From an uncultured Bacteroidota bacterium (GTDB lineage Bacteria; Bacteroidota; Bacteroidia; Bacteroidales; P3), in NCBI GenBank assembly GCA_902771735.1, contig CACXXO010000001.1, positions 1-64,000 of the forward strand: a stretch of 64,000 bases of DNA. Reading direction: 5' to 3'. Made by a program: the position numbers and the translations under genes. The first letter of the stretch is position 1. Each line of letters starts with the position of its first letter. Positions 1,683 to 21,600 of the stretch are shown here, piece by piece. The notes below the pieces were generated by a model. The model did not search any database. It worked only from the letters and a program-made list of their open reading frames with translations, and had not been told where the DNA came from.

Positions 1683-1717
1683 CATTCTGCCTGGCTCCAT
1701 CGGAGACACGGCCTGCG
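1683..1717 (+). repeat. 35-bp dispersed repeat, copy 1
   Basis: The 35 bases beginning CATTCTGCCTGGCTCC and ending CGGCCTGCG recur exactly at 3651-3685 and with changes at 3062-3096. A second shared word, GGAGCAAACGCATTCAT, follows at 1746-1762 and again at 3741-3757. The three copies flank the DUF4143 ATPase gene and the remnant of another. Confidence 0.85.
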
Positions 1718-1775
1718 ACGTTAGCGCGGCCAAGTGCAGAGGGCTGGAGCAAACGCATTCATTTTTTGTTTTGCT

Positions 1776-1826
1776 AATTCAAATAATCTTCGTATTTTTG
1801 CACTCGATTTTGATTGAAAATCGAGT
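1776..1826 (+). promoter_or_regulatory. Promoter of the DUF4143 ATPase with adjoining palindrome
   Basis: The -7 box TATTTTTG lies at 1793-1800. It is immediately followed by a perfect 10-bp inverted repeat with a 5-nt loop (ACTCGATTTT at 1802-1811, AAAATCGAGT at 1817-1826), placed where the transcript should start. This could be a repressor operator or a 5' stem-loop. The 27 bases at 1776-1802 are repeated exactly at 3981-4007, in front of the DUF4007 operon. Confidence 0.6.
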
Positions 1827-1873
1827 TTAGAAAACAATATTTTAAATGAAATTTACGCAATAATACAGCCATC

Positions 1874-4031: not shown

Positions 4032-4892
4032 ATGGCAAAATACAGCTTTTCTGGTCACGAGTCCTTTGCTTGCAAGTCGTTATGGCTCAAGAAAGGATAT
4101 GATTTTGTTGTGCAGAATCGCGATTTCAACGCACCTGATGCGGTTATATATCTCGGTGTGGGGAAAAACATGGTATCTTCTATTCGTTATTGGCTTAAAG
4201 TATGTAATATATACGATGAAAAAGGAATAACTTGGCTAGGAAACTACCTTTTCAACGACCATACTGGCAAAGACCTCTATCTTGAAGACCTAGCAACGCT
4301 CTATCTGTTGCATTTCAACCTTGTATTTTGTGGACAGGCCTCCATCTACAAGATGTTCTTCTGTGATTTTCAACGCGAACGTACACGTTTTACTAAAGAG
4401 CAATTTACGAATCATATCAAATATAAGTTGGCAGACGAGGATCTTAAAAGCCAATTCAACGAGAACACCGTCAAAAAGGACATTGATGTCCTCATCCACA
4501 ATTATGCCCTTCCTCGGAAGCCACAATCCAACGAAGACTTTTCCTCCTTGTTCATCGACCTCGACTTATTACGCATTACGGAAGACGGCAAAGAATACTA
4601 TTTCAACACCGAAGGCAAGCGCAAAGTCCCCAAAGAGATATTTCTCTATTCCCTCATGGAACTCAAAAACCGAGACAATGACAACACACTTCCATACGAC
4701 GACATTCGACACTATGTAGGCATGCCGTTCTGTATGAATGACTCTGAAATTATCGAAATGCTCAAAACACTTTCTGATCAATATTCCGATTGTATCACCT
4801 ATAGCGACGAATCCGGCATTCGGCAGCTGCAGTTCACCAAGGATATTTCAACCGAAAAAATACTGAACGATTACTATGGAACGAACATTTAA
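4032..4892 (+). CDS. DUF4007 family protein, SspB-like
   Basis: The 286-aa protein begins with YSFSGHESFACKSLWLKKGY and continues with AVIYLGVGKNMVSSIRYWL, the hallmark of the DUF4007 family. From the literature as I remember it, SspB of the single-strand phosphorothioation system belongs to this family and nicks DNA so that sulfur can be inserted. It is first in a long operon whose third core member is a PAPS-reductase-like enzyme, which fits sspB. No nuclease motif is obvious by eye. Its end overlaps the next gene by 17 bp. The family call is firm; the SspB role is inferred from context. Confidence 0.75.
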   Translation: MAKYSFSGHESFACKSLWLKKGYDFVVQNRDFNAPDAVIYLGVGKNMVSSIRYWLKVCNIYDEKGITWLGNYLFNDHTGKDLYLEDLATLYLLHFNLVFCGQASIYKMFFCDFQRERTRFTKEQFTNHIKYKLADEDLKSQFNENTVKKDIDVLIHNYALPRKPQSNEDFSSLFIDLDLLRITEDGKEYYFNTEGKRKVPKEIFLYSLMELKNRDNDNTLPYDDIRHYVGMPFCMNDSEIIEMLKTLSDQYSDCITYSDESGIRQLQFTKDISTEKILNDYYGTNI

Positions 4893-7800
4893 TTTATCGG
4901 CCAATATAGAAAATGGCTTTCCAAAAGGTGTTCGCTATATAGTAACACCCAATGCAAAGAAATCCATCGGCAATATTGTTGACAGCTTCAAGTCAGGCAT
5001 CCATTCATTCACCATCATTGGCACCTACGGCACAGGTAAATCCAGCTTTCTCCTGGCTGTTGAGTCCGACATGCAACAAGGCACTTCGAAGAATCTTTTG
5101 TTCAACCCGTCTATACTTTCAGACAAGGCCAACTTTGAGATTCTAAATATTGTAGGCGATTACTGCGACCTCGTTACCCTCTTGCAGCGTAAGTTGAACT
5201 ATGGGAAGTCTGGCGACAGCGTACTCGATGCACTCGACAGCTTCTATAAGAAATGCCGTAAGCAAGGAAAATTTCTCGTCATTGCGATAGATGAATTCGG
5301 AAAAGTCCTCGAACATGCCGCCAAGAACAATCCCGAAAAGGAACTCTATTTTCTGCAAAAGTTGGCAGAATATATCAACGAATCTTCTCGGCAGATTATT
5401 CTCCTCACCACTCTCCACCAAAACTTCGGATCCTATGCCAAGAACCTCAGTGAGGAGCAGCGTAACGAATGGAAAAAGGTGAAAGGCCGTTTCAAAGAAA
5501 TCACTTTTGTTGAGCCCATTGAGCAACTACTGCACCTTGCCTCTGTCCAACTGCAAGAAAGAGGAAAGACTCCTGCATTGACAAATGCCAAGAACCTTCA
5601 TCGCCTTGCAGTGGAGACAGGTTTTGTGGCTAAAGATTTCGACGAGCAAATCGCCACACAACTATATCCTTTGGACACTTTTTCCGCTTATGCCATCACC
5701 TCGGCCATTCAACGATATGGTCAAAACGAACGTTCCCTTTTCTCCTTCCTTGCTATGCGGGGCGAAGACTCTGTTATGGATTTTCTCCCTGCAGAACGTC
5801 AGACATACAACCTTGCAAAAGTATACGACTACATCACCTATAATTTTCAGGCCACGCTGAACGATGCCAATGCCGACACCATGACCTGGGCCTCGATGCA
5901 ACGTGCCATCGAACGCGCCGAGAGTTTGGTTTGGGAGTCCGAAAAACAGACAAATACTGCAAAATGCATCATAAAGGCGATAGGTCTAATGAATGCCTTT
6001 GGAAACGCTGGCTTCCGTCTTGATGCAAAACAGTTGTCACGCTACGCTAAATGGGCAATGGACACTCCCGACGCTGAATCTATTGTCAGCCGTCTCATCA
6101 AAATGCAGATTGTACGCTTCGCCGACTATCGCGGACGCCTTGTCCTCTTCGAGGGAACTGATGTCGACCTTGAAGGCGAATTTCATGAGGCCGGCCTTGT
6201 TGTCCCGCGTCCCATCCATTTCATTGAGAGGCTAAGTCTTCTGTTTCATCAAAGGATATCGCCTGTCAAGGCGCACTTTTACCAAAAAGGCACCCCACGT
6301 TTTTTTGACTACAAGATTCTTGATGCACCTGAGAGAATTACCCCCGACGGAGACACCGACGGATATATCGAACTGATTTTTTCCACCAAGAAGAATATCA
6401 TACAAGAACTCAAGGATGTCAGTTCCTCTTCCGGACTCGCTCTTGTCTTTGCCTACTTCAAGGACACGGACAATCTTATCACCCATCTCCACAATATCGA
6501 CAAATATGACTATCTCTTGAAAACCACCGTGGTCGAGACTGATAACATAGCTCGCGGCGAGTTCAAGAAACTGATGGAACATGAGCAAGACCTGCTGAAC
6601 AAGGAATTGAGCGACAGCCTATTCTCATACAACAACCAGGTTATATGGATATACAACGGCAAAGAGCAAAACATCTGTTCTCACCGCGACTTTAATAAAC
6701 TACTCTCTCGAGTATGTGACGAAGTTTATTTCAAAACGCCCGAATTGCGCAACGAACTCTTCAACCGTCACAAGCTCAGCGGGACAATTTCGTCTGCCAG
6801 GAAAAATTATTTGTCAGCCCTTATCGAACACAACACTAAAGAGGATTTAGGTTTCCCACCTGACAAATTCCCTCCTGAAAAAACCATCTACTATTCGCTT
6901 CTCAAAGACACAGGCTTACACATTAACGGCATCTTTGACGATACGAATGTAAAGTCCAGTTTCCGTCCTCTTTGGGATGCCTCCGAAGAATTCCTGCAAA
7001 GCACCGTCAACAAGCCTCGCCGCATATCCGAACTGACCCGAACCCTCCTCGAAAAGCCATACAAAGTAAAGCAAGGACTGCTCGACTTTTGGATTCCCAC
7101 CTACCTCTTCATCCGTCGTCAGGACTTTGCCCTCTATGATGCCTCCCGTGGTAGTTTCATTCCCAATGTCAATATGGAGTTCTTCGATCTCCTCCAGAAA
7201 CACCCTGGCGACTATCAGGTGAAAAAATTTTCGGTCGATGGTGTCAAGCTCAGTTTCTTCAACCAGTATCGCCGTTTTGTCAATCTCGGTGACGAGTTCT
7301 CCATCTCTACCCAAAGTTTCATTGAGACTATTAAGCCTTTCCTCAGTTTTTATGTCCACCTCAACGACTACACCAAGCATACCCGCAAATTCAACCACCG
7401 TTCTACTATGCGCTTCCGCGATGTTCTTGCCCAGGCCAAGGACCCAGAACAGGCTTTCTTCGAGGATTTACCCAATGCCCTCGGTTTCGACCGCGAAAAA
7501 CTCAAGGATGAACTGGCAATAAATGAATACGGACAGGTCATCGAGCGGGCCATCCGCGAACTGCGCACCTGCTACACCAACCTTATCGACCGCATTGAGG
7601 AACGTCTTGTCGATGAGTTTGGTCTCATGTCGGGCGATTATTCTGAGTATATCATCGAAATCCGTAAACGGCTAGCCAATGTGAAAACGCATCTGCTTAC
7701 CGGCAAGCAAAAGGAGTTCTACCATCATGTGATGACCGAGTACGAAAACCGCACCCTGTGGTACCAGTCCATCTGCTACACCATTCTCGACCAACGCCTC

Positions 7801-8106
7801 GACACCCTGCGCGACGAGCAGGAAGACAAGCTTGTCGACGACCTCGTCTATATGTTCCGCGAATGTGAGAAATATTCCGATATTTCCCACCGGTTGAAGG
7901 ACTCGGACAATAGTGATGCCTATTCTTTCGATATGGTGACCAACCAAGGTGCCAACATCCGCACTCAGACTTACATCCTTCCGGAGAAAGACAAGAAGAA
8001 ATCTTCCGAATTAGAAGAAAAGATAACTCGCATTCTATCCGGTAACAACAATGTTGATATCTGCACATTACTTTCAATATTGAACAAGAAAATAAACAAA
8101 CAATAA
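4876..8106 (+). CDS. Large P-loop ATPase, SspC-like
   Basis: The 1076-aa protein has Walker A GTYGTGKSS (49-57) and Walker B LVIAIDEFG (134-142), followed by TLHQNFGSYA, a sensor-like segment. The remaining 850 residues are mostly helical with no motif I recognise. Position between the DUF4007 gene and the sulfur-transfer gene matches SspC, the ATPase of the SspBCD modification complex. The start overlaps the preceding gene by 17 bp, and the stop overlaps the next start by one base (taATG). An alternative is one of the other large ATPases of defence islands such as BrxC/PglY, but no other BREX gene is present. Confidence 0.65.
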   Translation: MERTFNLSANIENGFPKGVRYIVTPNAKKSIGNIVDSFKSGIHSFTIIGTYGTGKSSFLLAVESDMQQGTSKNLLFNPSILSDKANFEILNIVGDYCDLVTLLQRKLNYGKSGDSVLDALDSFYKKCRKQGKFLVIAIDEFGKVLEHAAKNNPEKELYFLQKLAEYINESSRQIILLTTLHQNFGSYAKNLSEEQRNEWKKVKGRFKEITFVEPIEQLLHLASVQLQERGKTPALTNAKNLHRLAVETGFVAKDFDEQIATQLYPLDTFSAYAITSAIQRYGQNERSLFSFLAMRGEDSVMDFLPAERQTYNLAKVYDYITYNFQATLNDANADTMTWASMQRAIERAESLVWESEKQTNTAKCIIKAIGLMNAFGNAGFRLDAKQLSRYAKWAMDTPDAESIVSRLIKMQIVRFADYRGRLVLFEGTDVDLEGEFHEAGLVVPRPIHFIERLSLLFHQRISPVKAHFYQKGTPRFFDYKILDAPERITPDGDTDGYIELIFSTKKNIIQELKDVSSSSGLALVFAYFKDTDNLITHLHNIDKYDYLLKTTVVETDNIARGEFKKLMEHEQDLLNKELSDSLFSYNNQVIWIYNGKEQNICSHRDFNKLLSRVCDEVYFKTPELRNELFNRHKLSGTISSARKNYLSALIEHNTKEDLGFPPDKFPPEKTIYYSLLKDTGLHINGIFDDTNVKSSFRPLWDASEEFLQSTVNKPRRISELTRTLLEKPYKVKQGLLDFWIPTYLFIRRQDFALYDASRGSFIPNVNMEFFDLLQKHPGDYQVKKFSVDGVKLSFFNQYRRFVNLGDEFSISTQSFIETIKPFLSFYVHLNDYTKHTRKFNHRSTMRFRDVLAQAKDPEQAFFEDLPNALGFDREKLKDELAINEYGQVIERAIRELRTCYTNLIDRIEERLVDEFGLMSGDYSEYIIEIRKRLANVKTHLLTGKQKEFYHHVMTEYENRTLWYQSICYTILDQRLDTLRDEQEDKLVDDLVYMFRECEKYSDISHRLKDSDNSDAYSFDMVTNQGANIRTQTYILPEKDKKKSSELEEKITRILSGNNNVDICTLLSILNKKINKQ

Positions 8107-9284
8107 TGATAAGCAATATTTCAATAAAGAACTTCAAATCCGTAGTAGATGTAAGCATACCACTTGGAAGGTTCAACCTTCTTATTGGTGCAAATGGCTG
8201 TGGCAAATCAAACATCCTTGAAGGCATTGCCATAGGTGCCGCTGCCAGTTCAGACAAATTAGACTATGAGTATTTTGCCAATCGAGGAATACGTGTTGTA
8301 GATCCACGTTTTATGACACCTGCTTTTGAAGATATTGAGAATAAAACCATTACTATTAGTGCGAATGGTGAAGAGAAGTTCTCTCCCACTTTTAATATTT
8401 TTTATAGCAGTAACTCAAAACCTGCACGATGGGAAACAGATTCCAAAGACATTAATGTGGTTTTAAATGACATAAAACACTTAATTCCACAGGATCACCC
8501 ACAGGCTGGAGATGTTCTAAAATTAATAAAAAAGATTGAGCAATCTGAAAAAGACATCCCCAATCTTATAAGATTAAAGCGAGCCAACAAGGATCATGCA
8601 GAACTCATGGCGGTAAATCCTGATTTGAGACAATTCATTATTTATTCTCTCGAAGAATCGAAACTTCGCCAAGCTGACGACTCAAATCGTACCTATCCAT
8701 TGGGACGTCACGGAGAAGGTTTGTTTGCCTACTTAAAAGAGTTAGCTCAGCGGCCTGAATCTACAGCTTTTTTTGACGAAATTAAAGAAAACCTTAAGAT
8801 TCTTGATTGGTTCGGAGATATGGAGATTCCTGCCGGACAACTATCAATGGAGTTTAATTTGAAACTCAAAGACAGTTATCTGGCAGAAACCATTAATATC
8901 TTTGACCAGCGCAGCACAAACGAGGGCTTCCTTTACCTGCTTTTTTATTTCACACTTGTCATATCCGATGAGACACCACGCTTCTTTGCAATCGAGAACA
9001 TTGATACAGCCTTCAATCCCAAACTCTGCCGAGAAGTGATAAAACGGCTTGTGGCATTGGCGAAGAAACACGGTAAACAAATCATTGCCACGACCCACAA
9101 TCCTGCCATTTTGGATGGCTTAGACCTTAACGATGATGAACAGAAACTGATGGTCGTGCAACGCTCCACCGATGGATACACAAAAGTGAGGACGCTAAGG
9201 AAAGACGAGACCGTCAACAGTGACTTATCGCTATCGCAATTGTGGCTGCGTGGTTTCATTGGCGGACTGCCCAACAATTTCTAG
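8106..9284 (+). CDS. AAA ATPase (AAA_21/OLD-like), first gene of an embedded pair
   Basis: The 392-aa protein has the RecF/ABC-type ATPase layout: N-terminal ISIKNFKSV, Walker A GANGCGKS (28-35), a signature-like RSTNEGFLYLL, a Walker B variant RFFAIENID and a switch histidine in IIATTHNP. Such ATPases are paired with TOPRIM or RloB-type nucleases in OLD, Gabija, PARIS and AbiL systems. Here the next gene looks like such a partner. The pair sits inside the presumed sspC-sspD operon with a one-base overlap upstream, so it is transcribed with the modification genes. Walker B has ENID, without the usual DEP. Confidence 0.75.
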   Translation: MISNISIKNFKSVVDVSIPLGRFNLLIGANGCGKSNILEGIAIGAAASSDKLDYEYFANRGIRVVDPRFMTPAFEDIENKTITISANGEEKFSPTFNIFYSSNSKPARWETDSKDINVVLNDIKHLIPQDHPQAGDVLKLIKKIEQSEKDIPNLIRLKRANKDHAELMAVNPDLRQFIIYSLEESKLRQADDSNRTYPLGRHGEGLFAYLKELAQRPESTAFFDEIKENLKILDWFGDMEIPAGQLSMEFNLKLKDSYLAETINIFDQRSTNEGFLYLLFYFTLVISDETPRFFAIENIDTAFNPKLCREVIKRLVALAKKHGKQIIATTHNPAILDGLDLNDDEQKLMVVQRSTDGYTKVRTLRKDETVNSDLSLSQLWLRGFIGGLPNNF

Positions 9285-9295
9285 AAGAGACAATT

Positions 9296-9982
9296 ATGGC
9301 AACATACGCAATAATAAGTGAAGGAATATCAGAGAACCTTTCCATTCATGCTATCGTTGAGAAGATGAGCCTTGAAGACACCTACTTCGCCGACATTCAG
9401 CCACGCACCGACATGAATCATAGCCACGCGGTGCAAGAAGGCCCTGGTGGGTGGACAGAGGTTCTCTCGCACTGCAACACCGAAGTCTTCAAACAAGCAT
9501 TACAGAGTAATGACTATCTGATTATTCAGGTAGACACCGATAGGTGTGATGAACCATTGTTTGGCATTAAAAAGACAGACGAAAATAATCAGGCGCGTCC
9601 AGATGAGGATGTATACAACGACATTATAGACCGTATGCTGCAAGACGTTGACAAAGAATTCTACGAAACGAACAAGCATCGTATTATCTTTGCCATCTGC
9701 TTTGAAGAGATAGAATGCTGGTTCCTGCCTTTGTTTTATTCCGACAAACGAGCCTGTGCCACCACTGGTTGTATTGGCAAACTCAACCAAGAATTGAGCA
9801 AAGAAAAGGGCGGTTACTACATACCAGAGAAAGGAAAGAACGGTGCCAATGCAAGATGCACCTATCAATTCATCTTGAAAAAGATGAAACGAAAGGACAT
9901 TCCTCAAATAGCTCAATACAACTTAGGCTTCCAGCGATTCGTAAAGCAGTTGAACACAATTGACAAAGGAGCGGAAGAATGA
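9296..9982 (+). CDS. Probable TOPRIM-type (DUF4276/RloB-like) partner of the AAA ATPase
   Basis: Starting at ATG 9296, preceded by AGAAGAGA, the protein has 228 aa; an in-frame upstream ATG at 9242 would overlap the previous gene. The N-terminus reads YAIISEGISENLSIHAIVEK, resembling the acidic first motif of TOPRIM folds. YLIIQVDTDRCDE (DxD) and FEEIECWFLPL resemble the later acidic motifs of DUF4276/RloB-like proteins. The predicted role is the effector nuclease of the preceding ATPase. The fold assignment is from motif reading only. The stop overlaps the next start by 4 bp. Confidence 0.55.
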   Translation: MATYAIISEGISENLSIHAIVEKMSLEDTYFADIQPRTDMNHSHAVQEGPGGWTEVLSHCNTEVFKQALQSNDYLIIQVDTDRCDEPLFGIKKTDENNQARPDEDVYNDIIDRMLQDVDKEFYETNKHRIIFAICFEEIECWFLPLFYSDKRACATTGCIGKLNQELSKEKGGYYIPEKGKNGANARCTYQFILKKMKRKDIPQIAQYNLGFQRFVKQLNTIDKGAEE

Positions 9983-11085
9983 ATGTACGGCACATATTAG
10001 GCATCTCCGGCGGCAAAGATAGCGCTGCACTTTCGATATATCTAAAACAGAAATATCCTAATTTGAATATCGAGTATTACAATTCCGATACAGGTTGTGA
10101 ACTTGCGGAAACGGAAGCATTGATAAATCGATTGGAAGCGTACCTTGGTAAAATTGTCCGACTAAAGGCAGTAGAAGTAGAAAACAGCCCAGAACCCACA
10201 CCGTTTCATCATTACCTTAAGGCAATGGGAGGATTCTTGCCCTCTCCCCAAGCAAGATGGTGTACAAAAAAAATGAAACTGGATAGATTTGAAGAGTTTG
10301 TTGGGGAGGACTATGCCATATCATATGTAGGAATCAGGGGAGATGAAGATAGAGATGGGTATATTTCATCCAAACCAAATATTCAAGCAATATTTCCATT
10401 TAGAAAAAATATATGGAGTATTGATGTCATTAATAAAGTGCTGCATAATGACAACTTAAAACAGTTGATTGACATATACGAAAAACTATGCCCAGAAGGA
10501 ATTATGAAAGAGGATATAATGGATATTGTGAGAAAACCTCTTTCAAAAACATTCTTCTATTCAAAAAAGATGAATGCTTTACTTGATTTTGATATCAAGT
10601 TATTCAATCACGTTGTTTTTGAATACCTGAAAACGACAGATTATCCTGTGGGTAAATTAGATGAATTTCCGTTGTTGGACAATGCTGATGTTCTTGTAAA
10701 AGACGATATATTTAGGATATTGAGGGAAAGTGGAGTTGGTGTCCCTGCTTACTATGAGGAGATACCTTTTGAAGTAGATGGTAAAAAGGGCACCTATTGC
10801 CGTAGTCGCTCTGGTTGTTATTTCTGTTTTTTCCAACAGAAGATAGAATGGATATGGCTTTTAGAACAGCATCCAGACTTGTATAAAAAAGCAATGGAGT
10901 TTGAGAAAGACGGCTACACCTGGAATCAGGGAGAAAGTCTGGCTGAGCTAGCTAAACCCGAACGTGTGCGACAGATTAAACTCGATATAATCAAACGTCA
11001 GGAAGAGAACCGCCAGCAAAACAAAGGGACAACGCTGGTGGACATTCTCGGTGGTGACATCATGTGTTCAAATTGTTTCATCTGA
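9979..11085 (+). CDS. PAPS reductase-family sulfur transfer enzyme, SspD/DndC-like
   Basis: The 368-aa protein has the ATP-pyrophosphatase loop SGGKDS (10-15) at its N-terminus, as in DndC and SspD, which activate the DNA backbone with ATP before sulfur insertion. Cysteines in RWCTKK (C95) and in YCRSRSGCYFCF (C274, C280, C283) could hold an Fe-S cluster as in DndC; the protein ends in CSNCFI. It overlaps the upstream gene by 4 bp. BREX type 4 also contains a PAPS reductase-like protein, but no pglZ, brxL or methylase is present here. No cysteine desulfurase (SspA/DndA) is encoded nearby, so sulfur would come from a housekeeping enzyme. Confidence 0.8.
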   Translation: MNVRHILGISGGKDSAALSIYLKQKYPNLNIEYYNSDTGCELAETEALINRLEAYLGKIVRLKAVEVENSPEPTPFHHYLKAMGGFLPSPQARWCTKKMKLDRFEEFVGEDYAISYVGIRGDEDRDGYISSKPNIQAIFPFRKNIWSIDVINKVLHNDNLKQLIDIYEKLCPEGIMKEDIMDIVRKPLSKTFFYSKKMNALLDFDIKLFNHVVFEYLKTTDYPVGKLDEFPLLDNADVLVKDDIFRILRESGVGVPAYYEEIPFEVDGKKGTYCRSRSGCYFCFFQQKIEWIWLLEQHPDLYKKAMEFEKDGYTWNQGESLAELAKPERVRQIKLDIIKRQEENRQQNKGTTLVDILGGDIMCSNCFI

Positions 11086-11086
11086 T

Positions 11087-13411
11087 ATGGGAAACCTGCG
11101 AGAAATAGAATGGCCAAAGGGCAGGCGTTTTAAGTCGAACACGCGATGGGAGCCAGCAGGGTTCTTTAGCGATTGTTTGTGTAATTCTACACAGTTCGAC
11201 TTGATGCTTGGTTTTTTCTCTTCGTCTGCAATCAACTTATTGTCCGACAGCTTCGCCATTTTTATCGCCAATGGTGGAAGAATGCGGATGATAATAAATG
11301 ATGTCCTTTCAGATGAGGACCAGAAGGCCATTAGCAGTGGCATGAGTAACAAGTCTTTCGTCCCTGCATTTGATCTGACAAACATCGAGAACTTACTTAT
11401 GACATTAAGCGAGAGAGGTCAACATTTTTTTGATTGCCTCTCATATTTGATTCGTGAAAATAGAATAGAAATACAGATTGTTAGACCTAAAGGTGGAGGT
11501 GGAATCGCTCACAATAAGTGCGGATTGTTCTTTGATGAAGAAGGCAATAAGGTTGCATTTGAAGGTTCTTGCAATTTTTCCAGAACGGCTTTGATTGAAA
11601 ACAACGAGAGTTTCTCTGTGTTTTGTTCCTGGGACGGAGAAACAGATTGTGACCGAATTGCGGATATCGCGGAAGATTTTGATCGAACATTCTCGGGCGG
11701 AAATGAGTTTATTGAGTATATTGATCCATCCGACTTAAAAACCAGCATCCTATCGTCATACAAAAGTAAGGATTTAGCGAAACTATTGGATGACGAGAAG
11801 AAGATAATCGATAGTCGCCTTAAAACTGACTTAACACCTTCTCTTAAAAGATCACTGAAAAGAGCGAGAGACAAGGTTGAAAGACTAATGGTACTTCAAC
11901 AAAGTAAAACTGTTGCATGCGAGGATGAAAATGAATACGAGACTCCTCACTTCCCATATCCATCAGGTCCCCGTGATTACCAAAAAGAAGCTTTCGAGAA
12001 TTGGAAGAACAACAAACAGCGAGGTCTTTTCGCAATGGCCACCGGCACAGGTAAAACCCTTACTGCTCTGAATTGTTTGTTAGAGATATATCAAAGAAAA
12101 GGTTACTATAAGGCAATTATTCTGGTACCCACGTTGACACTAGTGGAGCAATGGAAGAATGAATGCCAGAAGTTTGGATATTCAAGAGTTATTAAAGTTA
12201 GCTCAAAGAATGCCTCTTGGCGCGAGGATATACGCAGAGTTCAATTTGATGAGCAACAATGTCAAGATGATGACAATGTATCATTCATTATCATTGCTAC
12301 TTATAGCTCTTTTGCCCGTCAGAATGTATTCGACATGCTGAATGGTTTCTCCCGCAGCCAGATGTTGCTGATTGCTGATGAAGCTCATAATATGGGTGCC
12401 CCTGGAATACTAAAGAAACTTGGCAGTATCAGCTACCTACGAAGAATCGGACTCTCGGCAACGCCAGAAAGACAGTTTGACGAACAAACCAACCGTAGGC
12501 TTGGACATTTCTTTGGGGCAGAAGAGAAATACACCTATGAGTATTCCATGGAGGAAGCGATTAGGAATGGCGTCCTTTGTCGATACTATTACTATCCCCA
12601 CATAGTACAGTTGACCGACGAGGAAATGGAACAATACGCTGAATTGTCATCGAAAATATCTCGATATTTCAATTTCAATAGTGGGACTTTCGACAAAAAA
12701 GATGACATCTTGATGGCTTTGTTATTGGCTCGAAAACGCATTATACATAAAGCCGCAAATAAATTACCTGCCTTCCGACAGATTATTACCGAGCATTTTG
12801 AAAAGCAGGGTTCTCTCAAATACACTCTTGTTTATGTCCCAGAAGGTACCAATCCAGACGAACAGGGAGCCGATATTTTTGAAGACCATGAAACCATAAA
12901 TGATGATCAAGATTCCGAGCACCTAATAGATATATATACACAAGCCGTATGTGAAGTGGATAAATACGTTACCGTAAGGAAATTTACAGGTGATACAAAA
13001 GATCGCGACAGAATATTAGATGACTTTGCTGCCGGAAGACTTCAGGTTCTAACCTCAATGAAGTGTTTGGATGAAGGTGTAGATGTACCTCGTAGTGAAC
13101 TCGCAATATTTTGTGCAAGTACCGGAAATCCGAGACAATTCATCCAAAGACGAGGACGTGTTCTTAGAACACACAAAGATAAAAAATACTCATATATCCA
13201 CGACTTGGTTGTGATACCAAGGGTAATGCCAGATACTCAAAGCTATCGCATGGAGCAAGCGCTTTTGGCAGGTGAACTGAAAAGAGTATATGATTTCTCA
13301 TCTATGTCCGAGAATCCATCTCAGGCGCAGATGGAATTGATTGATGTGATGAATTATTATGGATTAAACATGTTTGACAATACACATATTAACCATGACA
13401 CAGAAAGATAG
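11087..13411 (+). CDS. PLD-nuclease and SF2 helicase fusion
   Basis: From ATG 11087, two bases after the previous stop, the product has 774 aa; an earlier ATG at 11051 would overlap the sulfur-transfer gene. The N-terminal third is a phospholipase-D-type nuclease domain with AHNKCGLFFD (H142, K144) and GSCNFS. Then come the SF2 helicase motifs TGTGKT (319-324), DEAH (431-434), SATPER (457-462) and QRRGRVLR (687-694). This combination suggests a DNA-translocating nuclease, the likely restriction arm. Only one HxK motif is visible, so an active PLD enzyme would need a dimer. It may correspond to one of the SspFGH proteins, which I cannot verify by eye. Confidence 0.8.
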   Translation: MGNLREIEWPKGRRFKSNTRWEPAGFFSDCLCNSTQFDLMLGFFSSSAINLLSDSFAIFIANGGRMRMIINDVLSDEDQKAISSGMSNKSFVPAFDLTNIENLLMTLSERGQHFFDCLSYLIRENRIEIQIVRPKGGGGIAHNKCGLFFDEEGNKVAFEGSCNFSRTALIENNESFSVFCSWDGETDCDRIADIAEDFDRTFSGGNEFIEYIDPSDLKTSILSSYKSKDLAKLLDDEKKIIDSRLKTDLTPSLKRSLKRARDKVERLMVLQQSKTVACEDENEYETPHFPYPSGPRDYQKEAFENWKNNKQRGLFAMATGTGKTLTALNCLLEIYQRKGYYKAIILVPTLTLVEQWKNECQKFGYSRVIKVSSKNASWREDIRRVQFDEQQCQDDDNVSFIIIATYSSFARQNVFDMLNGFSRSQMLLIADEAHNMGAPGILKKLGSISYLRRIGLSATPERQFDEQTNRRLGHFFGAEEKYTYEYSMEEAIRNGVLCRYYYYPHIVQLTDEEMEQYAELSSKISRYFNFNSGTFDKKDDILMALLLARKRIIHKAANKLPAFRQIITEHFEKQGSLKYTLVYVPEGTNPDEQGADIFEDHETINDDQDSEHLIDIYTQAVCEVDKYVTVRKFTGDTKDRDRILDDFAAGRLQVLTSMKCLDEGVDVPRSELAIFCASTGNPRQFIQRRGRVLRTHKDKKYSYIHDLVVIPRVMPDTQSYRMEQALLAGELKRVYDFSSMSENPSQAQMELIDVMNYYGLNMFDNTHINHDTER

Positions 13412-13637
13412 AATGTTGCAATTGGTGCTCAATAATGAGCAACTAATGAAGCAGTATGGTTATACTGCTGAGCAAATAAATGACATCGATTTGCAAGAGG
13501 CGTTGCATAGCGATAACGCTGTTATTGCGAGTGTGGCCCGTATTATACGTGAACTGGACGGTTCGATGGATTCCTCCAAGCAGAAAGAGGTTTACAAGAA
13601 AGTATTTACCCATTTGAATAATAACTTGTTCCTATGA
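13395..13637 (+). CDS. Small unrecognised protein in the restriction module
   Basis: The chosen start gives 80 aa and overlaps the helicase gene by 17 bp; the stop overlaps the SMC gene by 4 bp. The protein is predicted to be mostly helical and charged (MTQKDRMLQLVLNNEQLM at the start, VYKKVFTHLNNNLFL at the end). No family was recognised. Tight overlaps on both sides argue that it is translated and works with its neighbours, perhaps as a bridging subunit. It does not resemble DndE by eye. Confidence 0.6.
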   Translation: MTQKDRMLQLVLNNEQLMKQYGYTAEQINDIDLQEALHSDNAVIASVARIIRELDGSMDSSKQKEVYKKVFTHLNNNLFL

Positions 13638-15799
13638 TAATCAAGAATATTTCAATCGAGAACTTCCGAAGCTATTATGGAAGTAACAGCATGGATGTCG
13701 GAGAAGGTCTTACTCTGATTATTGGTGCTAATGGCGATGGAAAAACAACGCTTTTCGAGGCATTGGAATGGTTGTTTGACACTGTTGACAACAAACCTAA
13801 AGTTGACACAAAATATATCTCGAAGAAAAAGATTGCCGAGATGATGCCTGATGAATCAGCAGTAGTCAAAGTTTCGATGACATACGAAAGCGAACGCAAT
13901 GAAAAGATAGTAGAGAAGTCGTTCAAGTTCACAAAAGCACAGGATGGCTCTGTTTCAACATCAAACTATATGCATTGTCTTTTTGTTCAGAATGGTAGCG
14001 AGAAAGAGGTGCGTGAAGGTGATGCAGCAAAAAGACTGTTTGATATTGATTTCTCTGCATCAATTAGAAAATATTGCTTATTCAAAGGCGAGCAAGAACT
14101 GAATATTTTCAATAAAGAGGAAGCAATGAGCTACCTGGTAGAAACATTCAGTAAGATACGCGATTTTGACCCATATATCGACTTTACAGGGAAGACTCAA
14201 AAATGGTCTCAGGATGCAGCTGACAACGCAATGAAGGCTGACCGGAAGAATAGTAAAGAGGCTGAACGGTTAAGATCCCTGATAAAGAATGAATCGGATT
14301 TCATTAGGGACAGAAGCGAAGAATTGAAAAATTCACAGAAAGAAGCCGTCAACTTCGCGACATTGCTTGACGAATTAGAGAAAAATAAGGAGTCGTCGGA
14401 GTTGCTTAATTCGACCAATAACAGGATAGCGACTTTAAAAGAAAAGATAGCGAAAGCATATCATGGAATTTCTGAGAATTACACATTTCGCTTACTTGAC
14501 GAGATGTGGATTTTGATGGGATTTGAACCCATTGCTCGCGAATATGGTGATATGGTTGCAACGCTCGACAAAGAGCAACGTCGCATGGAGAGGGAATACC
14601 AACGTGAACAGGGCGCGAAGAAAATGGCCGGGAAAATGCAGGAGGAAATAAACCAAGGATTTGTTCCTCTTGCATTGAATATTCCTGACGAGAATACTAT
14701 GCGAGAGATGTTGCATGATGAAGTGTGTAAAGTTTGCGGCACCCCTGCCCCCAAAGGGTCGGCTGCATATAATACAATGAAGAAACACCTTGATGACTAT
14801 TTGGCTTCCTTGAAAGATACCCATAATAACGAAGAAGAGGAAGAAGACACTCTTTTCAAACGGGAGTTTATCCGAGAGCTGGTTAACCGTTATACCGTAT
14901 TGCATAATGGAATGAACTGGCTTACTCGCTTGCCCTTAATCATTCAGACAGAGATTGAGAAGAATAGAAGCAATCACCAGATAGCTGATGGCTTGCAGGC
15001 AAAACTCGAACAAGAGGAAGAACAAAAACGTAAGATTTTGGCTCAGACAGATGGTCTTACTGAGGAACAACTAATATCCGCTTTTAACAATATCTCTGAA
15101 TGGTGGAAGCAGAAGAATAACGCTGAGAACAAATCTGATTACTTAAAACGCCAAATCGACGAACATCGCAAGAAATTAGAAGGATATCAGGAAGAGTATA
15201 GTCAGATTTCTGAAGAATCTGTGGCTGCAACATATGCTCGTACCAGCATCGCCATGCAGCGAATAGCAGAAGCTTTTTTGTCTGCCAAAGTGCGTAACAA
15301 ACGAGAGTTCTTGGCCCAACTGGAGAGTACTACCAACAAGTATCTGGAACGGCTTAATCGTGGAGACTTCCGTGGCCAGGCCCATATTGTAGAGAAAGCC
15401 GATGAAAGTGCTGAGCTGATGCTGATTGATACCGACGGTACTCGTATCTACAATCCCAATACAGCACTTAAAACCACTATGTATATGTCGTTGCTCTTTG
15501 CTGTGGCTGAACTTACTACAATAAAACATGAGGATGACTATCCTCTGATTTTTGATGCTCCTACCTCGTCGTTTACTGCTGCCAAAGAAAGCGACTTCTT
15601 TGGTGTAATTGGCGAAATAAACAAACAAACAATTATTGTCACAAAGAGCTTCCTTAACGAGAACGCTGACGGCTCATCATCAATCGACACGAAACGGCTT
15701 AAGTCAATCAAAGGTAAGAAATACCGTATTGAGAAGAAACGTCCGTTCGACGAAAAGAACCTGGCTACGATTGAAACCAGAATTGAACCGATTAATTAG
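13634..15799 (+). CDS. SMC/DndD-like ATPase with zinc-hook-like motif
   Basis: The 721-aa protein has the RecN/SMC layout: ISIENFRSYYG, Walker A GANGDGKTT (31-39), a long coiled-coil region (about 195-560), a CxxC hook (VCKVCGTPAP, C365 and C368) and a C-terminal Walker B LIFDAPTSSF. DndD of the double-strand phosphorothioation system has this architecture, as do several defence nuclease partners. It overlaps the small gene before it by 4 bp and is followed after 13 bp by the 202-aa gene. It is assigned here to the restriction part, because the modification core already has its own ATPase. Confidence 0.8.
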   Translation: MIIKNISIENFRSYYGSNSMDVGEGLTLIIGANGDGKTTLFEALEWLFDTVDNKPKVDTKYISKKKIAEMMPDESAVVKVSMTYESERNEKIVEKSFKFTKAQDGSVSTSNYMHCLFVQNGSEKEVREGDAAKRLFDIDFSASIRKYCLFKGEQELNIFNKEEAMSYLVETFSKIRDFDPYIDFTGKTQKWSQDAADNAMKADRKNSKEAERLRSLIKNESDFIRDRSEELKNSQKEAVNFATLLDELEKNKESSELLNSTNNRIATLKEKIAKAYHGISENYTFRLLDEMWILMGFEPIAREYGDMVATLDKEQRRMEREYQREQGAKKMAGKMQEEINQGFVPLALNIPDENTMREMLHDEVCKVCGTPAPKGSAAYNTMKKHLDDYLASLKDTHNNEEEEEDTLFKREFIRELVNRYTVLHNGMNWLTRLPLIIQTEIEKNRSNHQIADGLQAKLEQEEEQKRKILAQTDGLTEEQLISAFNNISEWWKQKNNAENKSDYLKRQIDEHRKKLEGYQEEYSQISEESVAATYARTSIAMQRIAEAFLSAKVRNKREFLAQLESTTNKYLERLNRGDFRGQAHIVEKADESAELMLIDTDGTRIYNPNTALKTTMYMSLLFAVAELTTIKHEDDYPLIFDAPTSSFTAAKESDFFGVIGEINKQTIIVTKSFLNENADGSSSIDTKRLKSIKGKKYRIEKKRPFDEKNLATIETRIEPIN

Positions 15800-15812
15800 A
15801 AAGGAGTAAAAC

Positions 15813-16421
15813 ATGGCAGTAAAGAATAGTAAATTCGACAGCGAGAGATTCGTCTCACTATTTGAGCTTTGGGGACGTAAGAATCCATCGTACGAAAAGC
15901 ACTACGATGACGAAGTGATTAAAAAGTTATGCGACTTTGGTAAAGGTACGAATGAGGCTTCTGATTCAAAAGCAAAGATTCTCGGAGCTGGATACGAGGC
16001 TTTGATTATGGCTTTCTTCATCGGTCTCTATTCCAACAAGAAGTTGGCACTGAACGAAGACCTTGATATCAAAGACCTTGGACAACCCATCCAGTTCTGG
16101 GGTAATTTAGATTCAAAAAAAGGTCGTCGCGCTTATCCCAAACTAAGAGAGTATATGTTTATCGCTTTAGTGGCGAAAACGCCTGAGATTAATTGGTATG
16201 AACTGGATAAAGGTCGTTGGACACCTAATGAAACGGTGAATGCACTAATGATGACCATGGAGGAGTATATCAACTATGGTCTTATGGTTATCAAGGAGAA
16301 ACTTGATGAAGACGAATCACACTTCCTCAACCAAGATGCTTTCCTCAACCTCATTCAGAGCATTGTTCACCCACGTGCTAAAAATTATTCATCAGTAGAT
16401 CAACCAGAGTCGTTGGATTAA
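15813..16421 (+). CDS. 202-aa unrecognised protein of the island
   Basis: The start is preceded by AGAAAGGAGT, an unusually good Shine-Dalgarno sequence for this phylum. The protein is helical, with segments such as FVSLFELWGRKNPSYEKHY, ILGAGYEALIMAFFIGLYSN and FLNLIQSIVHPRAKNY. I do not recognise the family. Its place after the SMC-like ATPase suggests that it is the last member of the helicase/small protein/SMC module. It has no signal peptide or clear membrane segment. Confidence 0.6.
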   Translation: MAVKNSKFDSERFVSLFELWGRKNPSYEKHYDDEVIKKLCDFGKGTNEASDSKAKILGAGYEALIMAFFIGLYSNKKLALNEDLDIKDLGQPIQFWGNLDSKKGRRAYPKLREYMFIALVAKTPEINWYELDKGRWTPNETVNALMMTMEEYINYGLMVIKEKLDEDESHFLNQDAFLNLIQSIVHPRAKNYSSVDQPESLD

Positions 16422-16434
16422 AAATAGAATTGAT

Positions 16435-17538
16435 ATGAAATACTCAATTAAAGAAATAACCATTTCGCAATTGATTGATTGGATAAAGAAAGATATAATC
16501 AATCTTCATCCACCATATCAGAGAAATTTCATTTGGTCGTCTAAAGATCAAAAATTATTGATTGATTCTATCATGAAAGGATATCCTTTGCCCAATTTCT
16601 TTATTTACAAAAAGAAAGATGACACCTATGATATGGTTGATGGCCAACAGAGAGCTACAACTATCAGCAAATACGTTAAAGGAGATTTTGCAGATTCGGG
16701 TAAAAATTTTTATCAGGACATTGATCAGGATAAATTCATGTCATATATACTTAATGTAACAGAATTGTATGATATTGATACATCAAATGGCGAATCTCTT
16801 GAAGATTTCTATAGTCTTGTAAACAAGCGTGGTGTCCATTTGAATCCTGCAGAGGTCAATAAGGCACAATACCACGATGCTCCCTTTATGGTATTGGTCA
16901 ATGAGTTAATGGATTTGCAAGGGCTATCAGATTTGGACATATTCTCTACAAAGACTGTCCAAAGGATGAATGATAGAAGCTTGATAGAGGAACTTGTTGC
17001 ATATTTGTTCAAAGGAAATGTAACAGATAAGAGAAAGGCAGTTGAAGAATTATTGGAATCCACACTTGAAACTGCTAAAGTAGAACAAGTTCGTGATGAG
17101 TTCAAATCAATATTGGAAATCCTTTGCCAGTTGAATGTAGTCAAACCAATAAAAGAGACAAGGTTTAAGCAAAGAAATGATTTCTATACATTGTTCTGTT
17201 TTATCGCTAAACATAAAGAATTTTCTGTGAATGTTCTTTCCGAACAATATCGTTTTTTGGTATTTGTTGATGAACATGAATACATCAGACCTACAAATGA
17301 TGATTGTGAGACTTTCAAGGAGTATGCATATCATTGCGTGACCCAGTCTAATTCTAAAACAGCAAGATTAACGAGACTGTCAATTTTGGAAGAAATACTT
17401 ATTGTTAAGAATGTGGAGGAGAAGTCTCATCATCTGGCAGATGTTTGTGAATATTTGGAAAGCGAATACGATATCGATGATATAGCATTTGCCGAGATTG
17501 AAGGTTGGAAGATTATTGATACGAAACAATTTAGTTAG
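16435..17538 (+). CDS. DUF262 domain protein (SspE/GmrS N-domain-like) without an HNH domain
   Basis: The 367-aa protein has the DUF262 features: HPPYQRNFIW (25-34), LPNFFIYKK and MVDGQQRATT (67-76, with DGQQR at 69-73). In SspE and GmrSD, a DUF262 domain senses or hydrolyses NTP and is fused to a DUF1524 HNH nuclease. Here the remaining 200 residues are helical and contain no HNH-type motif, so the protein may need a separate nuclease or act through the kinase encoded 5 bp downstream. Context suggests a phosphorothioate-dependent effector; the missing nuclease makes this uncertain. Confidence 0.75.
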   Translation: MKYSIKEITISQLIDWIKKDIINLHPPYQRNFIWSSKDQKLLIDSIMKGYPLPNFFIYKKKDDTYDMVDGQQRATTISKYVKGDFADSGKNFYQDIDQDKFMSYILNVTELYDIDTSNGESLEDFYSLVNKRGVHLNPAEVNKAQYHDAPFMVLVNELMDLQGLSDLDIFSTKTVQRMNDRSLIEELVAYLFKGNVTDKRKAVEELLESTLETAKVEQVRDEFKSILEILCQLNVVKPIKETRFKQRNDFYTLFCFIAKHKEFSVNVLSEQYRFLVFVDEHEYIRPTNDDCETFKEYAYHCVTQSNSKTARLTRLSILEEILIVKNVEEKSHHLADVCEYLESEYDIDDIAFAEIEGWKIIDTKQFS

Positions 17539-17543
17539 ACATT

Positions 17544-18512
17544 ATGGATATAAAATGTGATTTCCTTTTTCACAAGCCCATTTTACAAATCTCAGAAATT
17601 CGAACTGAAAATTATCTGAGATTAGATGATGTGGACTATTTTGTATCGTACCTTAATTCAGAATTCAAGTCTAACAAAGGTGGTAATTCTTTTGTTTTTG
17701 CATTATATGTTGCTCAAACATACGATGAGGATGCAATACCTGAAAGAGTAATAAAGATATCAAAATACCCCGAGCCATATAAAAATGACAAAATAAGGCC
17801 TAAAAACATAAACAAAAGATTTAGACAAGAAATAGATGCATTATATGATTGCAAACAACGAAATGTTGGTAATGTTATAAATATTTCCTTTGATGGCAAC
17901 TTGGTTTGTCGAACTTGCGAGGATGAAAATTACGAAGTCTCTTTTCCTTTTTATGTGATGGAGTATGCTGAATATGATTTAAAAAGTTTTTTAGAAGAGG
18001 AGAACGAAATGTATGATGAAGCCTCACGAGTTGAATTGTGTCTCCAAATTGCTCAAGGCATAAAAGAACTTAATGATCTTGGGTATTATCATCGTGACAT
18101 CAAACCTGATAATATTTTCATGATTAATGGCACATGGAAAGTAGGTGATTTAGGACTCATACAAATGAGAAATAAACCAAGCCTTGACAAAGAAGGAGAA
18201 TTGCTTGGGCCACGTGGATGGCTATCTCCAGAAGCAATGAATAAATACTTATCAGAGAAAGTTGAAGGGAAAAACTTCGATTGCAATATAGACCATCAGT
18301 CAGATTTGTTCCAATTAGCAAAAGTCTTTTGGTATATATTGCAAGGAAATGCTCCAATAGGATGCGTTAAGGAATCGGACTTCTTGCTTAGGAATACATC
18401 TCTCTATTCATTAATAAAACAGATGCTGAATCATTCTAAAAAAAGAAGACCTGCGTCAGTTGATATTGTCATTGATGAATTACAAAAGATTGTCAACAAA
18501 TATTATAAATAA
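17544..18512 (+). CDS. Eukaryotic-type Ser/Thr protein kinase
   Basis: The 322-aa protein has kinase motifs in order: a glycine-containing loop (NKGGNSFVF), the ATP lysine in RVIKIS (K71), the hinge YVMEYAEYDL, the catalytic loop YYHRDIKPDN (181-190), the metal-binding GDLG (DLG in place of DFG, 202-204) and the substrate-lobe PRGWLSPEA. All catalytic residues are present. No membrane segment or extracellular domain follows, so it is cytoplasmic. It starts 5 bp after the DUF262 gene. Kinases occur in defence systems such as BREX type 2 (PglW) and Stk2, where they phosphorylate partners or cause abortive infection. The substrate is unknown. Confidence 0.85.
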   Translation: MDIKCDFLFHKPILQISEIRTENYLRLDDVDYFVSYLNSEFKSNKGGNSFVFALYVAQTYDEDAIPERVIKISKYPEPYKNDKIRPKNINKRFRQEIDALYDCKQRNVGNVINISFDGNLVCRTCEDENYEVSFPFYVMEYAEYDLKSFLEEENEMYDEASRVELCLQIAQGIKELNDLGYYHRDIKPDNIFMINGTWKVGDLGLIQMRNKPSLDKEGELLGPRGWLSPEAMNKYLSEKVEGKNFDCNIDHQSDLFQLAKVFWYILQGNAPIGCVKESDFLLRNTSLYSLIKQMLNHSKKRRPASVDIVIDELQKIVNKYYK

Positions 18513-18652: not shown

Positions 18653-21600
18653 ATGATGATAGACAACGCACAGTTCACGCCAAGACAAGTAACAACTCCT
18701 AATGATATTCAGGATGAAAAATCGAATATATTCATTAGGACACTGTTTGTTGGTACTCGGGCAATTGCCTATGAGGTGAAATGTCATGACAAATCACCGA
18801 ATACTGATGGCTATATTGAACTTGTTGATGAAAAGAATCACCCCGTTGGAAAATTGACAATACAGGCAAAATCATATAAATCGAAATATAAAGGAAAAGA
18901 CAAGGCCGAGATTCCGGCATATTATGTCGCCTATGCTGACAGAATGCGCAATGAAGTATGCTTGTTCTTTTCGGTTGATGCTGACTCACAGAGAATATAT
19001 TGGAAATATATTTCTGACGATTATATTCAGGAGTTTAAGAAGGCAGGGAATCGAACCAGTCAAACCTATAAATTCGCTAAAGATGAGATTTTAAGTAAGG
19101 GTAATCTTAATCTCACATTGGACAAATGGAAAAGACTATTTGAAGAAAAACTGGCTTCGTTCTCCCAAATCAAAAAAGACTCGGCAGAAATCATCTCGGA
19201 GAATCGTGTTGCTTTCCATACAATAAACGCCACTTTCAACAATCTGCCAAATTCCCTTATAGAGAGAAGAGAAATCGGCCAGTTGTACAATTGGGTTAAA
19301 AAAGACTTGGCGGAAAATGTACCCAATATTATGTTGCTTGTGGGCAATGCCGGAACAGGGAAGAGTGTTGTGATAAAGCAATTGATTGAAAGATTGGAAC
19401 ACGATGAAATAAAATGCTTTGCCATCAAAGCCGACAGACTTCACTTTCCTCAGGGACAACCATGCAACGAACAATTGGAGATGCTGACCAAAACATTCTC
19501 CGGTTTGATCCAAGAGAAGAAAGCCGTCCTCATAGTAGACCAAATAGATGCGCTATCACAATATATCACAAAAGACAGGAACAAACTTGTCAACGTGGTA
19601 ACATTGATAAAACAATTCACCTCTGATGACAGGCTGAGAAATGTGAGGATTATCGTTTCCAGTCGTGCTTTCGATTTGGAATTTGACCCGAAATTGAGTG
19701 AATTGAGCAATGCCCCCCAAATCAAATTAGGGCTATTGGATAAAGCAAATGTGGAGACGGTTTTGAATCGTTTGCAAAAAGGGTTGTATCAAACAATGGA
19801 TGAGAAAACCTTAACCCTAATGCAAACGCCGCAACATCTTAATCTCTTCTGTAGAGTTTTTGTCAGAAACAAGGGGAAGCAGTACACTTCTATAACCGAA
19901 CTTTACGATGAACTATGGAGGCAGACTATTGACATGGCTAATGTTGATATTGACAAAAGTGCCGCAGAAGAAATCCTCTATACTCTGGCTCAAAAAATAT
20001 TTGATGAAGAAACTCTGGCTCCACGATGGAATCCCGACACGAAACATGTCAAGGAAGCAATCTATCTTAGAAGTCAAGGACTGATAGAATATGTGAACGA
20101 TGGAACCATGTTTTTCCATCAGAGCATGTATGATTATGTGTTTGCCCGTTATTATACCCAGAATGGAGGTTCGTTCATAGATGATTTACTGAAGGAGAAG
20201 AAGCACCAGGGACTGTTTATGCGTTCAACCGTGAACCTTGTGCTGGATTATGAAAGGGCAAAAAACATAAAGCAGTATAGGGAAGATGTTGTGACGATTC
20301 TTTTATCGGGCCAAATAAGACCGCATATACAACTCATGTTCTTGTGGGCTTTAGCCAATAGGGTGGACATTCTTCCATTTGAAAAGAGATGTATCAGAGA
20401 ACTGTATTCTTGCAACAAAATTCTATTCTGTTCTTTTATCCGACGGACTGGGAGCAAAGAATGGTACAATGTGATTAAAAGAATCATCTTGAATGTTGTC
20501 AAGGATTTGAGGGTTGGGGATGCTGTGTATGATGATGTTTTAGCGTTTATGTGGAATCATGTTCAATCCAGCACGGAAGATGTCTATGGATTGGTCGATT
20601 GTATCAAAGACAAGGACACAAGGAGTGTTGTCGCCCAAAGGCTATTGTATGCCACTTCGGATTATTCGTTAAATATTGTTACGAAATGGTATAAAGTGTT
20701 ATGTGACACTTTTGAAAAGAAAGTCGATTTTCTGGAGAGTGCTATGAAGAATAACGTCCAGTTTGTGTTGGACAATATTGCCGAGGTATTTGATTGTATC
20801 ATGGATTCCCAAGGGATTGCTAATCACATAGAACAGTCTTTCTTTGAGAATGTCTGCACTCCGCTAAAAGAGAAATGCCCAGAAGCACTCTACTCTATTT
20901 TGAGAGATAGAATACTGAATGCTATCAACAACCATCATGTACATACTTGGAGAGAAGTGGTGGGCTCAAATTCAATATTTCCTTCGTTGATGAGTCACCA
21001 TCATAATACTTATGCCATACACGAGTTATTTGAAGAGCTGTTGGTGGAAGGGATTAAGCAGGAACATGCTTGTATTGTTGCTGATGTCAGATTGTTGTTG
21101 TGCAAAAAGGAATCCAGCTGTTATGAGTTTGCATTCAAAGCAATGATAGAAAAACCATTGCTGTTCTCTGATGATATTATTGCCATCCTCAAAGACAGCA
21201 AGTTGGTCGATGAGCTACTGGATTTTGGAAATGTGGAGTATTATTTTCTTGAACTGATTAGAGGTTGGCTCGCTCTGGTTGACGGGTCAACTTTATCAAA
21301 GTGTCAAGATATCATATATGATTTCAAATCAGCATCAGATTCGCTCTCAGACAAGGATAGGAAATACACAGTATTGCTTTACCCACATTGGGGATACAAT
21401 CAAAGAAAACTCATTTGGGCCATACCAGAAAACCTTAGAGATAAACGTGTCAGAAAAAAATATCAAGAGCTAAACAGACGTTTTGGCAATAAATGGGACA
21501 ACACGAAGCCTAATCATAATGTTGCCATGGCACACGTCTGTGGAGGTTTGATGACGTTAGAGAGGTACAGAACTATTTCAATAAAAGATTGGTTGCATTC

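Follow-up and report, generated by a model that had tools for sequence, protein, structure and literature searches.

We analyzed a stretch of 64,000 nucleotides (the window) that forms the beginning of contig CACXXO010000001.1 (assembly GCA_902771735.1, forward strand) from an uncultured Bacteroidota bacterium of the order Bacteroidales, and focused on a cluster of genes related to DNA phosphorothioation. Eleven plus-strand open reading frames, assigned below to Ssp modification genes, Pbe restriction genes and two additional gene pairs, fill positions 4032-18512 (Table 1). Neighboring genes overlap or abut, with the largest gap not exceeding 13 base pairs (bp), and the overlaps are 17 bp for sspB/sspC, 1 bp for sspC and the AAA gene, and 4 bp both for the TOPRIM-like gene and sspD and for pbeB/pbeC. 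A first-pass annotation, made from the sequence alone, had described eleven same-strand genes with overlaps of 1-17 bp, and the list of open reading frames agrees with it, although three starts probably differ. For the gene listed at 9242, ATG 9296 is the more likely start; the helicase gene pbeA probably starts at ATG 11087, 1 bp past sspD, rather than at GTG 11051; and the start of pbeB is probably ATG 13395 (80 amino acids (aa), MTQKD...), a position that agrees with the start of its counterpart in locus L086. The G+C content of 4032-18512 is 40.8%, compared to 56.7% for 25700-64000. Protein families were identified by PADLOC, Pfam and NCBIfam scans of the eleven cluster proteins and of flanking proteins.

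Table 1. Genes of the cluster and the neighboring NTPase gene, with coordinates in the window.
Feature	Coordinates	Strand	Evidence
SspB (DUF4007), DNA-binding subunit of Ssp phosphorothioation	4032..4892	+	PADLOC SspB 296 bits; Pfam DUF4007 263 bits
SspC, large ATPase of the modification module	4876..8106	+	PADLOC SspC 1204 bits vs BrxC 206
AAA_15/AAA_21 ATPase, PADLOC candidate PDC-M31A	8106..9284	+	PDC-M31A 238 bits, AriA 84; Pfam AAA_21, AAA_15
PDC-M31B-type protein, TOPRIM-like	9296..9982	+	PDC-M31B 34 bits; acidic motifs judged by eye
SspD, PP-loop/PAPS-reductase-like sulfurtransferase, SGGKDS	9979..11085	+	PADLOC SspD 290 bits vs DndC 23
PbeA, PLD/HKD-type nuclease domain fused to SF2 helicase	11087..13411	+	PADLOC PbeA 1056 bits
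PbeB, 80-aa small protein	13395..13637	+	position; blastp to same-place L059 gene, E 3e-6
PbeC, ABC ATPase of DndD/CxC kind, CKVC hook	13634..15799	+	PADLOC PbeC 58 bits, LmuB 61
PbeD, probable DndE-fold partner of PbeC, 202 aa	15813..16421	+	structure model
DUF262 (GmrSD_N, ParB/sulfiredoxin-like NTPase) protein, 367 aa	16435..17538	+	Pfam GmrSD_N 76 bits
Ser/Thr protein kinase, Lys, HRD, DLG motifs	17544..18512	+	Pfam PK_Tyr_Ser-Thr 5e-17
AAA/STAND-like NTPase, 1434 aa	18653..22957	+	Pfam AAA 3e-7; G+C 39.1%

All three components of the Ssp modification module, SspB, SspC and SspD, are present together. The identities proposed in the first-pass annotation for the DUF4007, large ATPase and SGGKDS genes, and offered there for a check by profile searches, held up well: the similarity is far beyond chance, with PADLOC E-values of 6e-89 for SspB, 0 for SspC and 6e-87 for SspD, and 4e-78 for the Pfam family DUF4007. 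SspC had no match in the Pfam scan. As had also been noticed before, no cysteine desulfurase gene (sspA) lies inside the cluster; a full-length Aminotran_5 gene (477 bits), a putative desulfurase, is located outside it on contig C11 of the same genome, and this chromosomal desulfurase may be the sulfur source.

A helicase-nuclease and an SMC ATPase had been seen to follow this core. Both are there, but the annotation missed that they belong to a known restriction module, pbeA, pbeB, pbeC and pbeD. PbeA matches TIGR04095 (DNA phosphorothioation system restriction enzyme) with 401 bits, under the cut-off of 600 for this family, and PLDc_2 with 21 bits, also under the cut-off; the HxK and SxN residues of its nuclease domain are invariant in 9 of 9 aligned proteins, and the motif pattern is found in 47 of 50. 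PbeB has no family match in PADLOC, Pfam or NCBIfam, and genes of 72-88 aa occupy the same place between pbeA and pbeC in L086, L087, L088, L094, L095, L182, L187, L189, L191 and L208. The PADLOC score of PbeC is weak alone; blastp against the genes that follow pbeA in L059 and L060 gives 335 and 308 bits, and a mid-protein hook is found in all 51 PbeC proteins compared (CxxC in 22, CxC in 29). Thus, by position and homology, PbeB and a hook-bearing PbeC follow PbeA in the expected order. PbeD also lacks a family match in the three collections; the closest structural match of its predicted structure is DndE, so that it is a probable DndE-fold partner of PbeC. The earlier statement that dndE is absent therefore stands for sequence (none of the cluster proteins is a DndE in comparison with two presumed DndE proteins) and is probably wrong for fold.

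The DndCDEA-PbeABCD system of Haloterrigena jeotgali A29, as presented in PMC6459918, has the same pbeABCD order (helicase, small protein, ABC ATPase, small protein); however, the modification module of the window is SspBCD instead of DndCDE, and its desulfurase lies outside the cluster. No DndCDE partner was found, as indicated by the two SspD scores in Table 1 and by the lack of a second DndD-type gene among the eleven. With the SspABCD-SspE and SspABCD-SspFGH plans outlined in PMC8092258, the window shares the order sspB, sspC, sspD, but it differs in that PbeABCD takes the restriction place, a nested gene pair splits sspC and sspD, and sspA is missing from the cluster. An SspE-type DUF262-DUF1524 HNH fusion is not present (Pfam detects only GmrSD_N in the 367-aa protein), nor does any of the eleven proteins have a Pfam match indicative of SspH with its FtsK/SpoIIIE-like C-terminus. 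The first-pass view that the gene order departs from both plans was thus correct. The CxC ABC-ATPase/DndE-anchored systems (PMC10853773) share with the window an HKD-SF2 helicase, a small protein and an ABC ATPase with a hook, and their DndE cognate probably corresponds to PbeD; these systems are coupled to Dnd genes or cytosine methylases, and coupling to SspBCD was not found in the available part of that source. BREX type 4, according to the portion of PMC12839542 at hand, has DUF4007, a BrxC/SspC-type ATPase and a PAPS-reductase in common with the window, whereas the window ATPase is much closer to SspC than to BrxC (Table 1), and PglZ and BrxL are absent among the PADLOC families listed for the eleven proteins and six flanking ones, with at most 25 families listed for several of them.

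The association of Ssp with Pbe is recurrent. Among 395 genomes of the same phylum, SspC (at least 300 bits) was found in 22 and PbeA (at least 250 bits) in 10; 7 of the 10 PbeA genomes, including that of the window, carry SspC within about 15 kilobases (kb) (hypergeometric P 6.5e-8, with genomes treated as independent), while L065 and L067 are Dnd-linked and L066 has neither. SspC (E<=1e-60) is present in 12 of 295 genomes of the same order, and PbeA adjoins it in 6, again with the window included; across all SspC regions examined, Pbe occurs in 12 of 29. When GTDB was scanned with an alignment of PbeA, 80 loci were retained, 56 of which hold PbeA at 250 bits or more by profile: 20 are Ssp-linked, 12 are Dnd-linked, and 24 show neither. 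The Ssp-linked taxa include Bacteroidota, Bacillota, a Methanobrevibacter, an Acidobacteriales and a Rhodobacteraceae genome. A cysteine desulfurase gene directly precedes pbeA in L059, L060, L062, L091 and L102, among others.

In several loci the two modules form a single run. A seven-gene SspBCD-PbeABCD run is present in L086 and L191 and on L208, a viral contig, and L207 is near-identical by profile matches. L086 and L208 have neither the AAA/TOPRIM-like nor the DUF262-kinase genes, and in L191 the seven genes are followed by a YhcG-like gene; the earlier picture of one eleven-gene Ssp set is therefore sustained for the sspBCD core but not for a single eleven-part machine. The Sphingomonadaceae plasmid CP099618 contains, as a single run, desulfurase, DUF4007, SspC and PAPS reductase genes and then helicase, small, AAA ATPase and small genes; profiles confirm the six larger genes, not the two small ones. 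Both halves are also present, in convergent orientation, on the Rhizobium indigoferae plasmid NZ_CP140639. In contrast, Pbe follows a Dnd run on the Ruegeria plasmid NZ_CP045388 and a methyltransferase on the Aurantiacibacter plasmid NZ_CP015441. A quick tree built from 57 PbeA proteins (31 Ssp, 12 Dnd, 14 neither) requires at least four switches between Ssp and Dnd partners, and the Ssp label on it changes 6 times compared to 19.2 in shuffles, with 0 of 500 shuffles as low. The clustering of labels together with the partner switches indicates that the Ssp-Pbe partnership is stable within clades yet exchanged.

These data bear on the possibility that PbeABCD is a stand-alone, suicide-type nuclease system, an option raised by Rakesh et al., and that Ssp is a separate modification system next to it. 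Cleavage of self-DNA is one of the options proposed in the part of that paper available to us (NAR 2024, PMC10853773), and the 24 PbeA loci with neither Ssp nor Dnd genes fit this idea. However, only one base separates sspD from pbeA in the window, the single runs of L086, L191, L208 and CP099618 tie the two modules together, the Ssp label is clustered on the PbeA tree, and the haloarchaeal Pbe, in the account of PMC6459918, needed phosphorothioation for protection and lost it against a phosphorothioate-modified virus. We consider two independent neighbors improbable.

Since the seven-gene run occurs on contigs classed as viral (L207 and L208, 4837-15265), it is possible that SspBCD-PbeABCD systems are carried by phages or prophages. 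Partial PbeA matches (56-58%) were also observed in two unannotated fecal phage records. A further arrangement was seen in L102 (Lachnospiraceae), where the order is BrxP-like, SspB, SspC, SspA/DndA, PbeA, small gene, PbeC, small gene, and in L109 (Methanobrevibacter), where it is repeated; the PP-loop protein scores 258 bits with BrxP vs 51 with SspD in L102, and 262 bits with BrxP in L109. The modification half of these two loci looks closer to BREX type 4; no PglZ or BrxL was noticed in this stretch, though only some of its genes were scanned. DUF4007, an SspC-type ATPase, a desulfurase and PbeA co-occur in nine loci of this kind (L102, L104, L108, L109, L111, L118, L130, L131 and L132) from Bacillota, Methanobrevibacter and one other bacterium, with a BrxP-like PP-loop protein in the two that were profiled. 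In addition, a protein of about 500-860 aa lies near SspBCD in 8 of the 29 SspC regions (L071, L073, L074, L075, L078, L183, L186 and L190), and the two that were profiled contain a weak HATPase_c_3 (GHKL) domain.

The last two genes of the cluster encode a DUF262 protein and a kinase, and both have lower G+C content. The DUF262 protein matches the DUF262 chain 7p9k (BrxU) by profile (1.7e-7), and its best PADLOC family is NsnA (97 bits, across the first 230 residues); no DUF1524 or HNH nuclease domain was found in it by Pfam. It keeps DGQQR, which is conserved in 6 of 6 family members, and a P-x-Y-Q-R loop, in which the tyrosine is replaced by phenylalanine in 4 of 6. The Lys, HRD, Asn and D-x-G residues of the kinase are invariant in 8 of 8 proteins, and its best PADLOC family is mad6 (81 bits). 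DUF262 and kinase genes are clustered with Ssp genes in the window, where they come after pbeD, in L071 and L074 (after sspD), and in L095, where they follow sspD and are convergent with pbeD, sspC being only a contig-edge fragment. The pair also accompanies Ssp genes on plasmids L178, L179 and L181, and the kinase lies beside sspD in L180 and L304, as described below for the plasmid records. A plasmid search with the kinase matched 128 records, and eight, from the best 20 of the 128, were examined. Two Asticcacaulis plasmids have DUF262 and kinase genes facing PAPS reductase, SspC, DUF4007 and desulfurase genes. Two Sphingopyxis records show the kinase gene directly next to a PAPS reductase/SspC/DUF4007/desulfurase run, with a Tn3-family transposase annotated just before the kinase and most of a DUF262 gene about 38 kb off. 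In Pseudanabaena an FtsK-type gene and a desulfurase gene flank the pair, and SspC is encoded about 13 kb from it. Three weaker matches (H5, H9, H10) lack an annotated DUF262 nearby and any annotated Ssp gene up to 8 kb away. The Asticcacaulis DUF262 query matched 736 plasmid records, and only 5, its own included, cover at least 78% of it; these are Asticcacaulis, Sphingopyxis and Pseudanabaena plasmids, each with Ssp genes. Around the next match below this coverage gap (H66, 64%), no Ssp gene is annotated over a distance of 8 kb.

One explanation of the pair is an independent defence module in the same island, akin to NsnA-type DUF262 proteins on one side and to defence kinases like MAD6 or PD-T4-6 on the other. 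The best PADLOC families and the lower G+C content of both genes are in line with it. An NsnA-like DUF262 protein and an NsnB-like nested AAA protein (73 bits, far below its PDC-M31A score) both occur in the cluster, with six other genes between them; NsnA/NsnB is presumably Menshen. On the other hand, this explanation does not account for the clustering of the same pair with Ssp genes in four loci of Bacteroidota type and on two Asticcacaulis plasmids, for the Pseudanabaena arrangement, or for the presence of Ssp genes in all five well-covered DUF262 records; moreover, no kinase in the 295 genomes of the order exceeds 108 bits other than that of the window (399 bits), and the three lower kinase matches that were examined are not Ssp-linked. 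Therefore, an independent module appears unlikely. Alternatively, the kinase could be a regulator or off-switch that phosphorylates Pbe or Ssp proteins, restraining them in incompletely marked cells. A phage Ser/Thr/Tyr kinase that phosphorylates and disables DndFGH, cited in a passage of PMC11662687, gives this idea a precedent. However, the pair occurs with SspBCD in stretches where profiles found no Pbe gene (L071, L074, L179, L181), and Pbe is therefore not a required target; we regard a regulatory role as rather doubtful.

In SspE and DndI, as described in the portion of PMC11662687 concerned, a hydrophobic pocket of DUF262 with a key tyrosine reads phosphorothioate and governs a fused HNH nickase. 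These proteins have DGQQR and a P-x-Y-Q loop, as in the window, where, however, the DUF262 protein has 367 aa, no detectable HNH domain and a kinase as partner. By analogy, the window protein might read phosphorothioate and relay the signal to the kinase. We tentatively suggest, at clearly less than even odds, that DUF262-kinase is a new phosphorothioate-gated effector, in which an SspE-type plug-in sensor rides on SspBCD and on a Pbe module exchanged between Ssp and Dnd; the exchangeable outputs would be fused HNH (SspE, DndI), kinase (the window and plasmids) and SIR2 (L186). In the literature searched, including the available parts of PMC11662687 and PMC12707154, the pairing of DUF262 with a kinase in phosphorothioation was not found. 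As a separate observation, sspD of L186 is directly followed by a DUF262 gene (Pfam 68 bits) and then by one for a SIR2 protein (94 bits), at 7522-9409, as if a SIR2 effector had taken the kinase's place.

The AAA/TOPRIM-like pair sits between sspC and sspD and overlaps at both ends; its second protein has no match in the Pfam scan, and a single-protein profile of the nested ATPase revealed no counterpart in the other SspC/PbeA loci scanned. Different genes are inserted elsewhere: a 740-aa gene and others between sspD and pbeA in L187, and three genes there in L189. In L087 (3306-8872), sspC is missing, and the space from a short sspB to sspD is taken up by genes for SIR2-domain, 352-aa and methyltransferase-like proteins; genes resembling this insert lie by sspC in L094 and L075. 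The operon seems to be a carrier for extra genes. The cluster lies in a low-GC island with other defence-type genes. The AAA/STAND-like NTPase gene 140 bp downstream is regarded as a neighbor in the same island and not as a component of the system, and a YhcG/PDC-S02 nuclease gene follows it in the same low-GC stretch (18653-24096); helix-turn-helix, HipA-like and AAA_14/DUF4143 genes lie upstream (282-3010). Such an island, and the absence of sspA from the cluster, could be expected if the cluster were a decaying assembly of defence genes without a working system. This is very improbable, however, because all 11 frames are open, the overlaps are kept, and the catalytic motifs of PbeA, the kinase, DUF262 and SspD are present.

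Taken together, the PADLOC profiles, the operon order and overlaps, the PbeD model nearest to DndE and the recurrence of Ssp with Pbe lead to the Ssp/Pbe assignment. We conclude, with a probability of roughly 0.7, that the locus encodes a restriction system based on phosphorothioate and composed of SspBCD modification and PbeABCD restriction modules with two add-ons. Judging from homology, SspB would recognize sites, SspC would provide the ATPase work, and SspD would deliver sulfur from a cysteine desulfurase of the chromosome, thereby marking one strand of host DNA. As in the haloarchaeal Pbe, PbeC and PbeD, a hook-bearing ABC ATPase and its probable DndE-fold partner, would scan DNA, and PbeA, a helicase with an HKD-type nuclease, would act on unmarked DNA. 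DUF262 and the kinase may be a second effector, in which DUF262 would read the mark via a ParB-like NTPase pocket, as in SspE/DndI, and switch a Ser/Thr kinase instead of a nuclease. The AAA/TOPRIM-like pair is possibly a nested backup defence.

This system would join Ssp sulfur-marking genes to a DNA-attack module, Pbe, that was described with a different marking system. The pairing was not found in the open-licence literature searched; PMC8053081, the one paper there with both SspBCD and PbeABCD, mentions them, in the part available, as separate systems. The Pbe study, as far as its accessible text goes, sought dndCD and methyltransferases near PbeAC, and 165 of 553 PbeAC pairs were without a nearby modification partner (PMC6459918). 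The SspFGH study, in the corresponding portion, sought SspE and SspFGH near SspBCD in 2,678 sspBCD clusters, and found sspFGH beside 196, sspE beside 199, and both in 36 more (PMC8092258). Recurrent Ssp-Pbe pairing may partly fill both gaps, the partnerless PbeAC and the sspBCD without known restriction genes. The pairing predicts that a single-strand mark licenses Pbe, and it raises the question of whether a DndE-type scanner reads single-strand marks. If the suggested role of DUF262-kinase is true, it would link an epigenetic mark on DNA to the phosphorylation of proteins as part of bacterial immunity.

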